Shown: one piece after another, positions 7,817-12,721 of the stretch
How the letters are laid out: each line of letters opens with the position of its first letter
Position numbering within the stretch: the first letter of the stretch is position 1
From: Methanobrevibacter sp.
Lineage (GTDB): Archaea > Methanobacteriota > Methanobacteria > Methanobacteriales > Methanobacteriaceae
DNA: 64,000 bases
Assembly (NCBI RefSeq): GCF_030539665.1
Contig: NZ_JAUNXR010000001.1
Location: forward strand, 226,767 to 290,766
Direction: 5' to 3'
Made by a program: the position numbers and the translations under genes
The notes under the pieces: generated by a model
The model's database searches: none
What the model was told of the DNA's origin: nothing
What the model saw: the letters and a program-made list of their open reading frames with translations, nothing else

Positions 7817-9727
7817 TTATTGGATTCTAACACTGTCCAAATTCACAGGAGTTTTAGTGTCAATTTTATAACTTCTGTGGACACTGGATGCAAGGTCAAC
7901 TGCTTTATATGGGTCTCCGTGACAGGTTAAAATTAAATCAGGTCTTGGATTAAGTCTTTTTACATAATCCATCAGTTGATGCCTGTTGGAGTGACCACTG
8001 AATCCATTAATGGTTTTAACTTGCATTTTTATGTTGAACACTTTATTTTTACCGTCATCTTCAAGAGGGATTTCTTTCCATCCCTTTTGAACTCTTCTAC
8101 CTAGGGATCCTTCAGATTGGTATCCTACAAAGATTAAAGTATTTCTTTCGTCTTCACTTAACCATTTGAAGTATTCAACAGAGTTTCCACCAGTCAACAT
8201 ACCTGATGTTGAAAGAATGATTGCAGGTTCCGGACTTTCTACAATGTCCTTTCTTTGGTCAAGGTTGTGTACTTTTTTAAACATTTCTGACATGAATGGG
8301 TTTCTGCCCATATGGAATATTTGGTCTCTCAAATCTTTACTTAAGTATTCCGGTCTTGCGGTATGAATTGCAGTAGCTTCCCAAATCATACCGTCAATGT
8401 AAATCGGTACTTCGTCAATCATTCCATGTCTCATGTATTCTTCAAGTACTACCATAAGTTCCTGTGCTCTTCCTACTGCAAATACAGGTACTAAAACTTT
8501 TCCTCCGCGTTTTAAAGTTTTGTAAATGGTTTTCATCATTTCTTTTTCTGCAGAGTTTCTTGATGGTTGTACGTCTTCTCTTCCACCGTATGTACTTTCC
8601 ATAATTACGGTTTCAGAACGTGGGAATCTTGTAGTTGCAGGCTCTAATAATCTGCTTCTTTCGTATTTGAAATCCCCAGTGTATACCAGGTTGTGAGCAC
8701 CATCACCAATATGCATATGGGACATTGCAGAACCTAGGATATGTCCTGCATTGTGTAAAGTTAATCTGATGTCTGGAGAAATGTCGGTTACTTCCCCATA
8801 ATCAAGAGTAATGGTATTTTTAATAGCTTGCTGTACATGTTTTCTATTAAACGGTAAAGGATTATCTTCTCTATGAGCTATATCAATATGGTCTAACTGT
8901 AAAAGGGTCATCAAATCTCTAGTAGGTGTTGTACAATAGATTGGACCATCGTAGCCATAATGATATAAGTAAGGAACAAATCCACAGTGGTCAAGGTGAG
9001 CATGTGAAATGATGACCGCATCCAAATCCTCAATTGAAAATTCAGGTACGTTTAAATAAGGGAATGCATTTTTATTGTCATTAGCAGCTACATTCACACC
9101 ACAATCGAGTAAAACACGACTATTTGGTGTTTGTAAAAGCATTGAAGAACGTCCTACTTCTTTAAATCCTCCCATTGAGGTTACACGAGCCCAGTCATTT
9201 GGATATTTTCCATCCTGATGGATTCTTTGCCCTAAGTTCAAAAGGAATTTTTTACGTTCTTTTGTATGATTTTTCAATGTATTTCTTATTTTTCCGATTA
9301 TCTCTGAACTGATTGGAGGTGTTCTTAAGATTTTTGGAGCCCATCCAGTATTCTTTACGATATTTCTTGAAGTTGCTCCGTATTTTCCAATTACAAGTCC
9401 TGGTTTTTTAGCAGTGATAACTACTTCACGAGTTACGGTATCAAAGTAAATGTCTGTTATTTCAGCTCCTTCCGGAACAATTTCATGAACTTTGTCAATT
9501 GTTTTTTCCGGATCAAGTAAAACAGATTTATCAGAACGAATAATAATACGTTTTCTTAAGTCTTTTGCCAATTTTCTTATTGTATCTCCATGTTCGGTTA
9601 TAATTTGTGGATTTTTAGTGTAAGCAACTACTGCGGGGCCTTCATATTCTACTTTCGAAACCTCTGCATCTTTTGGCAAGTTACTTACAATAGTTTTTTT
9701 AATCTCCTTTATGCTCTCTGAAGTCAT
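7817..9727 (-). CDS. fttA: Transcription termination factor aCPSF1/FttA (KH + beta-CASP nuclease)
   Basis: A 636-residue protein with about 150 N-terminal residues of KH-type RNA-binding sequence, then a metallo-beta-lactamase core. It shows HAHLDHCG (about residue 241), [21 protein letters not shown] and ESTYGG, a beta-CASP domain with [13 protein letters not shown], and a final [11 protein letters not shown]. All zinc-ligand motifs are intact. Archaeal aCPSF1/FttA cleaves nascent RNA at U-rich 3' ends and drives transcription termination. The start is ATG 9727 with GAAGGGA upstream. The leader is unusual: nested inverted repeats and a U8 tract lie just before the ribosome binding site, described separately. 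Confidence 0.95.
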
Positions 9728-9738
9728 ATAATCCCTTC

Positions 9739-9828
9739 AAAAAAAAGTTATGTGTAAAGATAGAGTTATGAAAAGCCGCAGTGGCTATAATTAGTTTAAT
9801 TCATAACCTATTTACACTGTTATATAAA
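9739..9828 (-). promoter_or_regulatory. Nested inverted repeats, TATA box and U8 tract before fttA
   Basis: Three nested complementary pairs lie between psmB and fttA: GTGTAAA 9752-9758 with TTTACAC 9811-9817, GTTATGAA 9765-9772 with TTCATAAC 9800-9807, and AGCC 9774-9777 with GGCT 9783-9786. On the minus strand a TATA-like TTTATATA spans 9828-9821, which would place the start of transcription near 9800, at the edge of the second repeat. A run of eight T (minus strand) at 9746-9739 lies directly before the ribosome binding site. The repeats could act as a DNA operator or, on read-through transcripts from psmB, as an RNA structure. The role is inferred. Confidence 0.55.
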
Positions 9829-9851
9829 AAAATAGTTAGTATATGAAAAAA

Positions 9852-10472
9852 CTAGTTCTTGATTTCTTCTAATATTTTATTAACTTTTTCATCATCTAAC
9901 ATTTCAAAGCCATCTTTGTCTACTTTAGCGACAAGATATCCATTTCCTGAATATGTGTCACGTTCAGCAGCAGCTTTTATAGCTCTTACGGCTATTTCTA
10001 ATCCTTCGTCAACGTTAATGCCTTCTTGGTACCTGTCTTCTAATACTCCATATGCAACGATAGATCCAGATCCAGTTGATATGAATGTGTCTTTAATCAT
10101 ACCTCCTGCTGGGTCAAGTGAGTATAAGGAAGGTCCGTTATCATCTACTCCACCAAGTAATGTTTGAACCATCATTGGTCCGGAGCGTAAAATATTAGCA
10201 GTTAAGGAAGCAGCTGCTTTAATTGAAATTGGGGTATTGTTTCTCATTTCATATAAAGATACTTCAGCCTCAATAACTTTCATTAAACTCTGTGCATCTC
10301 CTACAGAACCTGCTATGGTTGTTACTATATGATCATTGATTTTGAATATTTTTTCAGCAACTTTGTGAGCAACAAGGTTTCCCATACTTGCTCTTCTTTC
10401 GCTTGCAAATACAACACCATCTTCACATGTAATTCCGACTGTTGTTGTACCTTCTAAAATTTTATCGTTCAT
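9852..10472 (-). CDS. psmB: 20S proteasome beta subunit
   Basis: A 206-residue N-terminal nucleophile hydrolase forming the proteolytic inner rings of the archaeal proteasome. A short propeptide of eight residues ends in Gly, followed by the catalytic Thr9 in TTTVGI. Further features are the conserved lysine region around ERRASMGNLVAHK, the loop IAGSVGDAQ and GSGSIVAYGVLE. AGGTG precedes ATG 10472. T-rich runs follow the stop on the minus strand and probably end the transcript before fttA. Confidence 0.96.
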   Translation of the reverse strand: MNDKILEGTTTVGITCEDGVVFASERRASMGNLVAHKVAEKIFKINDHIVTTIAGSVGDAQSLMKVIEAEVSLYEMRNNTPISIKAAASLTANILRSGPMMVQTLLGGVDDNGPSLYSLDPAGGMIKDTFISTGSGSIVAYGVLEDRYQEGINVDEGLEIAVRAIKAAAERDTYSGNGYLVAKVDKDGFEMLDDEKVNKILEEIKN

Positions 10473-10669
10473 TTCTACACCTCATATAAGTATTTAAAAT
10501 TTTATCTTATTTCAACTACTTCATAGGTTATATAAAAATAATCATAAATATATCTTTATAAATTATTTATAAAATCAGAATCAACATTAGTATATAAACT
10601 AACTACATATATATTATGTATTTACATATATAAAGTTTTGCATAGTTTAAAACTTGCGAGGTTTTTTCA
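10473..10669. promoter_or_regulatory. Divergent promoter region between psmB and taw2
   Basis: A 197-base AT-rich spacer between divergent genes. Several TATA-like stretches are present on both strands, including TTTATAAATT around 10555 and repeated TATATA blocks at 10590-10630. GAGGTTTTTTCA precedes the taw2 start. No inverted repeat stands out. Which TATA serves which gene cannot be decided by eye. Confidence 0.45.
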
Positions 10670-11398: not shown

Positions 11399-12052
11399 CT
11401 ACCAAAAGTCATAAATTCCCTTAGCTTCGTTAAATAGAAATTCCCTGATTTCACTTGCTGCTTCATAGCACTTCAAGTCAAATGTTATGAAATCCAATGC
11501 TTTGCAATAATTCATATTAAAATCATAGGCATCCAAAAGAATTTCATTGTCTGGGTAATGAACGCCTAATTCATTGATCTTATTCAATAGGTTTTCATAA
11601 CTTTCAATTCTTTTTGGAGTTGTTTTGATTATTTCTATCAATTTTTTCCTATTTTTATAGGGAATTATATTTAATTCAATTAATAGGTCTTCAACACTCC
11701 GTTTAACCATTTCAATTTGTGGAAAACGCTCTTCAATATAAATTTGCCAGAATAATATTAAGCTGGTTTTAAAATGTTTTAGACTTTTTTTACTCATTTT
11801 TAAAGAAGATATATATTCCTCGATTTGATGTTCATAAAAATGGCTGCATTTTTTCAAATGAATTAAAAATTCTGTATAAAATTTTCTTAAAGCATTCTTT
11901 TTATTATTCAATGTTTTTTTGAATTCATTCAGTACGGTGTTTGACCAATAAATGTTTTGATATTTTTTAAATATTGTTTCAGATTTCCTATTAAATGGGT
12001 CTAAGTTAAAGCAATATGAAATTGGCACATTCGTATCTACAAATGAGTTCAT
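11399..12052 (-). CDS. PIN-like domain protein, second gene of an accessory pair
   Basis: A 217-residue protein with acidic residues arranged as in PIN nucleases: FVDTNV at the N-terminus (Asp6, Asn8), YPDNEILLDA (Asp168, Glu170, Asp174) and ITFD (Asp192) near the C-terminus. It is longer than typical VapC toxins, with a lysine-rich helical insert between the first and later acidic motifs. Its ATG overlaps the upstream gene's stop in an ATGA junction, so the two are translationally coupled. The unit sits between conserved taw2 and cofG and ends one base from the taw2 stop. A toxin or defence role is plausible, but it could also be an RNA-processing PIN protein. The sequence shows only the likely nuclease fold. 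Confidence 0.62.
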   Translation of the reverse strand: MNSFVDTNVPISYCFNLDPFNRKSETIFKKYQNIYWSNTVLNEFKKTLNNKKNALRKFYTEFLIHLKKCSHFYEHQIEEYISSLKMSKKSLKHFKTSLILFWQIYIEERFPQIEMVKRSVEDLLIELNIIPYKNRKKLIEIIKTTPKRIESYENLLNKINELGVHYPDNEILLDAYDFNMNYCKALDFITFDLKCYEAASEIREFLFNEAKGIYDFW

Positions 12053-12591
12053 TCTCCCCCCATATTTAACAAGTTAGCTAATATTTCAGATAGGGCTTTT
12101 TCATTGTAGTTTTCCGATGGTTTGTAGATTTCATTATAAAATTTATCTTCACAATCATCAAAATTTATTATAAAGTCTATTAAGTAATTATCGTATTCTT
12201 TTTCAGTTCCATTAACCTTTAGGTGGATTAAATTTGAAAATAAGTTCACCATTTTATAAATTAATTCAATATTTTCCAATGTAAGAATATTATTATTTAC
12301 CATATATGAAAAGAATAATGATATGTCTTGAAAATACATGTATTCATTTTCATATTCTTCTAAACTTATGAATTCTTCATCCAACTCTTCAAATGAATTT
12401 TTAACTTCATCAATTAAAACTTCCAATGTTTTCTCTTTCTTTTTATAAGATATTTTTGGTATTTTATCTTCAACAAACTCTTTTAGAAGTTCAAATAAAT
12501 GATGGATTGATTCTTTGATGGAATCAATGGAAACTATGCTTTCGTTTATTGTCATGGTTATGGGGCTGCCTATTTGATTTAGGTTGTTCAT
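12049..12591 (-). CDS. Unknown protein coupled to the PIN-like gene
   Basis: A 180-residue, mostly helical, acidic protein with no motif I recognise. The start is put at ATG 12591, which has AGGAGG seven bases upstream; the longer frame from 12612 would bury that site. Its stop overlaps the start of the PIN-like gene by four bases. A TATA-like CTTATAAACC lies upstream on the minus strand near 12655. By position it could be an antitoxin or partner, but it has no ribbon-helix-helix, AbrB or Phd-like DNA-binding motif. The function is unknown. Confidence 0.55.
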   Translation of the reverse strand: MNNLNQIGSPITMTINESIVSIDSIKESIHHLFELLKEFVEDKIPKISYKKKEKTLEVLIDEVKNSFEELDEEFISLEEYENEYMYFQDISLFFSYMVNNNILTLENIELIYKMVNLFSNLIHLKVNGTEKEYDNYLIDFIINFDDCEDKFYNEIYKPSENYNEKALSEILANLLNMGGE

Positions 12592-12721
12592 TTTGAAACC
12601 TCCTAAACTCATCGATGAATTTGTTTTAGTAAATAATGATTGTACTTAATGGTTTATAAGGTTTCAGTTGTATTTGAAATCAATTTTTCATAAAAAAGTA
12701 AATTAATAGTTATTTTTAAAA

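Follow-up and report, generated by a model that had tools for sequence, protein, structure and literature searches.

The window is the whole stretch of 64,000 nt from Methanobrevibacter sp. that was analysed. The genes psmB (10472-9852), fttA (9727-7817), and purM lie on its minus strand in that order, with a gap of 124 nt between psmB and fttA. The product of fttA (aCPSF1) exhibits the Pfam domains KH_TffA, Lactamase_B_6, Beta-Casp, and RMMBL. The fttA leader is the 124-nt gap (minus strand, 9851-9728) that is bounded by the stop codon of psmB (9854-9852, minus strand) and the ATG of fttA (9727). The features of the locus are shown in Table 1.

Table 1. Features of the psmB-fttA locus in the window and the basis on which each was assigned.
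Feature	Position	Strand	Basis
psmB, proteasome beta subunit, directly upstream of fttA	9852..10472	-	ORF; Pfam Proteasome PF00227, 193.9 bits
Distal U-tracts U6 (9851-9846) and U7 (9832-9826), just past the psmB stop; terminator-like	9826..9851	-	Sequence; genome 3'-flank statistics
TATA-like TTTATATA, overlaps the end of the U7 tract; putative promoter	9821..9828	-	Exact in 51/60 genus leaders
Long hairpin, 5' arm GTGTAAATAGGTTATGAA	9800..9817	-	Repeat search, folding, covariation
Hairpin apical region: conserved ACTAATTATAGC and 4-bp mini-hairpin	9773..9799	-	Folding, alignment
Hairpin 3' arm, TTCATAAC.CTAT..TTTACAC	9752..9772	-	Repeat search, folding, covariation
Proximal U8 tract	9739..9746	-	Own-genome T-run scan; genus alignment
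Shine-Dalgarno-like GAAGGGAT, directly 3' of the proximal U-tract	9731..9738	-	Sequence, alignment
fttA (aCPSF1), downstream gene	7817..9727	-	TIGR03675 996.7 bits, cut-off 580.2

The leader contains nested inverted repeats of 7 and 8 nt around a third pair, and a T8 tract (9746-9739) that abuts the ribosome-binding site GAAGGGAT (9738-9731), as the first-pass annotation had described. The outer arms GTGTAAA (9817-9811) and TTTACAC (9758-9752) pair perfectly over 7 nt and the inner arms GTTATGAA (9807-9800) and TTCATAAC (9772-9765) pair perfectly over 8 nt, while the innermost pair consists of 4 bp between AGCC and GGCT (9786-9783 and 9777-9774). In the predicted fold, the arms are separated by about 27 nt and the bulges are unequal. 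The minimum free energy of the leader is -20.4 kcal/mol with a folding z of -3.2, and the hairpin taken alone has a folding z of -4.6. The hairpin ends at 9752 and the U8 tract starts at 9746, which is the order of a bacterial intrinsic terminator where a hairpin is followed by a U-run within a few bases. However, the stem here is A+T-rich, its loop is large, and the U-run abuts the ribosome-binding site. Two near-copies of ACTAAYTA that are conserved in the genus are also present on the minus strand, namely ACTAACTA (9840-9833) before the U7 tract and ACTAATTA (9795-9788) in the hairpin loop; a KH protein such as FttA might conceivably recognise them.

The fttA leader was compared with those leaders of its own genome that carry a Shine-Dalgarno site and have intergenic sequence upstream (117 leaders from 464 kb). 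The T-run near the start is the longest in fttA, with a run of 8 in 1 of the 117 leaders and runs of at least 7 in 5 of them, and the folding z of fttA is the second-strongest. The loose combination of an inverted repeat and at least U6 occurs in 9 of the 117 leaders, so the repeat and U-run evidence from a single genome is weak and the case rests on the related genomes. Downstream of stop codons, at least U6 was found within 60 nt in 89 of 173 genes of this genome and at least A6 in 22 of 173. The U6 and U7 tracts after the psmB stop match this usual 3' flank and appear terminator-like by this statistic. The genome is A+T-rich, and U-tracts are common in it.

The gap DNA was found before fttA across the genus, and 60 distinct fttA leaders were aligned. 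In the alignment, the start region and the blocks of U-tracts hardly change, while the hairpin arms vary together. The proximal tract is a U7 at -18 to -12 from the ATG in 51 of the 60 leaders and is reduced to U5 in two leaders. With the covariance model, 62 of the 67 genus genomes gave a single sense-strand site each, in every case before fttA; the three remaining rows are weak antisense matches to these fttA sites. Four of the five genomes without a site (G012, G032, G037, and G046) have no match covering the fttA start, and the fifth (G061) has a diverged leader (L013) that is still foldable (-14.9 kcal/mol). The Rfam search of the leader returned no described family, with best E values of 0.4 to 2.6 that are all far below the gathering score. 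Conservation of the psmB leader (10473-10592, minus strand) across the genus is almost as high, with a mean column identity of 0.86 compared to 0.89 for the fttA leader. It exhibits a nearly fixed TTGATTCTGATTTTAAATAAAA-like block and a predicted hairpin of just 5 bp beside its ribosome-binding site.

The pairing of the hairpin was analysed over the 60 leaders in a structure-aware alignment. The 16 modelled pairs are paired in 99.7% of cells, a value that is favoured by construction since the alignment was fitted to the structure, and slid control structures are paired in 23-64% of cells. Changes on both sides were found in 6 pairs (25 cells), which none of 500 shuffles reached. Double changes are still present in seven hairpin pairs in the plain MAFFT alignment. 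One pair has six A-C cells in that alignment, which vanish in the structure-aware alignment and are attributed to a shift of TTACACA by one column. An equivalent test gave 5 pairs without any double change for the psmB leader and no pairs for the 3' flank of fttA. The hairpin pairs are thus kept by compensatory change beyond chance and beyond the controls, as is expected of a cis-acting structured RNA. The first-pass annotation had proposed a comparison with related genomes, and that comparison found the repeats retained with compensatory changes and the U-tract retained.

The pair changes were then placed on a tree that was built from psmB and fttA coding DNA. Among the 42 inferred changes, 10 are compensatory doubles, 29 are one-sided with the pair kept, and 3 are breaks. 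The one-sided changes on the fttA-sense strand comprise 26 that create G-U and 3 that revert from G-U, and none creates A-C. A G-U pair on the fttA strand would read A-C on the other strand, so selection acts on the fttA-sense RNA. The aligned leaders show that the hairpin is real and that selection has maintained it as fttA-strand RNA in which both arms belong to a single molecule. The comparison also argues against the loop as the only place where fttA transcription starts, because both arms must be transcribed together.

The comparison was extended to the order Methanobacteriales outside the genus. A U-tract of at least U5 before the start was found in 56 of 59 leaders, a count that does not include the group g12, where no U-tract was found before the start in 12 leaders. 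As judged from these leaders, most of the order retains the proximal U-tract beside the ribosome-binding site. Hairpins of changed sequence were also identified. One leader of another genus (L122, z -4.2) has kept the outer arms GTGTAAAA and TTTTACAC and has a wholly different inner arm (ATTAGATTA/TGATCTAAT). The arms are ATGTAAAG/CTTTACAT in g13, TGTGAAC/GTTCACA in g14, AGTAAAC/GTTTACT in g15 and g16, and GTTGTAAG/TTTACAAC in g17. The hairpin p-values of single leaders in g13 to g17 are weak by themselves (0.01-0.2 where the leader has one of these hairpins), so the argument is the recurrence of a hairpin with changed sequence. The g4 leader contains GTAAAC/GTTTAC, and the stem scan preferred a different stem there.

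The f3/g19 group has a psmB-fttA gap of 69-73 nt that carries a palindrome, then CTGTTTTTT or CTATTTTTT (U6), and then GAAGTGAT. The palindrome CAGTAAAC-N4-5-GTTTACTG occurs once per genome in 8 of 8 genomes. Its arms are invariant and its loop varies in sequence and length (L226-L233); the arms covary in the genus of the window. At least U6 before a start also occurs in 7 of 113 leaders of f3/g19. A repeat family or regulon was considered and rejected, since the covariance model gives only the fttA site in each genome and the f3/g19 palindrome is likewise found once per genome.

The psmB-fttA gap is shorter than 150 nt in 9 of 10 groups with the hairpin and in 2 of 8 groups without it (Fisher p 0.013, 18 groups, with the presence of the hairpin scored by the analyst's own judgement). 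Several genera, most of them with long gaps, lack the hairpin. These comparisons suggest a modest association in which the hairpin goes with a short gap and hairpins of changed sequence recur mainly there. In other Methanobacteriaceae genera (g6 to g9, g11, and g12; L144-L201), the gap widens to 200-700 nt and the hairpin is missing, and the U-tract beside the ribosome-binding site stays in all of them except g12.

Several explanations that give the hairpin little or no role as RNA have been weighed against these results. An ordinary A+T-rich spacer with chance repeats would fit the 9 own-genome leaders that also combine a repeat and a U-run, but all of the comparative results oppose it, and it is refuted by the covariation and the controls. 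The first-pass annotation had held a DNA operator, in which a regulator binds inverted repeats around the start site, to be equally possible. The invariant arms and variable loop of f3/g19 do look operator-like on their own, but even there the length of the spacer varies (4 or 5 nt), and in the leader of the window the arms are far apart with unequal bulges. An operator would also keep its repeat as sequence and show wobble without strand preference, whereas the genus exhibits double changes and wobbles that are polar to one strand (26 to G-U, none to A-C). RNA is what has been selected, and the operator is now very unlikely. It is improbable, to a lesser degree, that the leader is only a psmB terminator and a separate fttA promoter at TTTATATA, with the fttA start in the loop and repeats that matter little. 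The U6 and U7 tracts past the psmB stop do resemble the usual terminator of the genome, and TTTATATA (9828-9821) is exact in 51 of the 60 genus leaders and in 13 of the 117 own-genome leaders. From its sequence and conservation, TTTATATA could be a genuine promoter from which fttA transcription starts in the loop. However, the copy has a T-run where several tRNA promoters of the genome have A/G-rich sequence, and TTTATATA is absent from the other hairpin-bearing leaders inspected, e.g., those of f3/g19. The polarity of the G-U changes also needs both arms in one RNA. An RNA that starts in the loop lacks the 5' arm, so the selected hairpin belongs to the psmB readthrough RNA or to an RNA that starts upstream of 9817. 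A promoter motif derived by EM for this analysis was set aside, as it had drifted towards a G+C-rich motif resembling coding sequence.

We tentatively favour the reading that the leader is a structured intercistronic element of a psmB-fttA readthrough RNA that limits the expression of fttA, plausibly through FttA acting on the U-runs. The order of parts on the readthrough RNA would be the psmB stop, a U-tract terminator, the long hairpin, a second U-tract, the Shine-Dalgarno site, and the fttA start. The RNA structure, its strand, its conservation, and this order are what the analysis shows, and the readthrough, the termination or cleavage at these tracts, the feedback, and the job of the hairpin are inferred. 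The distal U-tracts may stop much of the transcription, and the remainder would read through. FttA, whose KH domains bind U-tracts, would end transcription at the U-tracts of its own message or cut them, and its expression would be limited in this way. The RNA ends formed in this way may be set or protected by the hairpin. A shortage of FttA would lead to more readthrough and more fttA expression. The autoregulatory attenuation that the first-pass annotation had suggested is compatible with the leader, and it is attractive. A wider claim is possible, with somewhat less confidence, namely that in most Methanobacteriales FttA governs its own production through the U-tracts of its message, where the hairpin gates the psmB-fttA readthrough RNA. 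This would be the archaeal equivalent of the attenuation of rho by Rho. As in rho-type autoregulation, a candidate signal for termination by FttA is present in the fttA leader of the genus and in the 56 of 59 other leaders, and it is absent in g12. Points that weigh against the favoured reading are the abundance of U-tracts in the genome, the U-runs in 7 of 113 f3/g19 leaders, the lack of a U-tract in g12, the genera without a hairpin, the modest link of hairpin and gap length, and the possible promoter at TTTATATA.

A processing or stability element without feedback is nearly as likely as the feedback reading. The hairpin would then protect an RNA end, either the 3' end of the psmB mRNA or, in a processed fttA mRNA, the 5' end, and would set the ratio of psmB to fttA, and the U-tract would aid the landing of the ribosome or be tolerated. 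The hairpin is found mostly where psmB and fttA are close, and genera that lack the hairpin still have the U-tract by the ribosome-binding site, which indicates that the two parts can have separate jobs. Bacterial stem-loops that set operon stoichiometry are also known (PMC8219983). However, the placement before the gene of a U-tract-binding factor is left unexplained by such an element, although it could be a coincidence of a conserved gene pair.

The feedback reading is consistent with several reported properties of aCPSF1. In M. maripaludis, the terminator U-tracts are bound by the KH domains of aCPSF1 (PMC8716108), and poly-U termination sites inside operons (ioTTS) reduce the expression of the genes that follow, an effect that depends on aCPSF1 (PMC10450193). 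In S. solfataricus, aCPSF1 also accumulates close to promoters, and a higher load is accompanied by less RNA (PMC8448881). The fttA leader resembles the ioTTS in having poly-U tracts (U6, U7, and U8) between two same-strand genes. It differs in that the downstream gene would be aCPSF1 itself and that a conserved hairpin lies between two U-tracts; the main text of PMC10450193 has no mention of a stem-loop or hairpin. A hairpin is not known to be required in archaeal termination (PMC7515710). Hairpins are thought dispensable at the U-tract sites of archaea, and the element suggests that they may play a part there.

A close bacterial likeness is the rho gene of B. subtilis, where Rho-dependent attenuation (PMC12350095) limits the gene of a termination factor by premature termination in its leader. 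However, FttA is a metallo-beta-lactamase ribonuclease and Rho is a helicase, the signal here is a U-tract and a hairpin instead of rut sites, and the feedback here is proposed. The E. coli RNase E is likewise a ribonuclease that is feedback-regulated in cis via the 5' UTR of its own message, rne (PMC10989929), but the enzyme and the RNA are unrelated, and cleavage of the fttA leader is hypothetical. The operons with selective RNA processing and stabilization (PMC8219983) are similar in that an intercistronic hairpin could set the stoichiometry of two genes; they were described for Clostridium, whereas processing of a psmB-fttA RNA is hypothetical. Autoregulation of a termination factor is already known for Rho. 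The open literature searched, which mostly leaves out subscription papers, contained no account of autoregulation by FttA. No explanation of the steady level of a general termination factor in archaea was found in the literature searched either. The conserved covarying RNA element before fttA is a small and defined target (about 120 nt) for tests of autoregulation.

Another observation in the window concerns two adjacent small ORFs of 217 and 187 aa (11399-12612, minus strand), whose ends overlap. The first of them has no Pfam match; it begins with MNSFVDTNVPISYC and appears PIN-like by eye.
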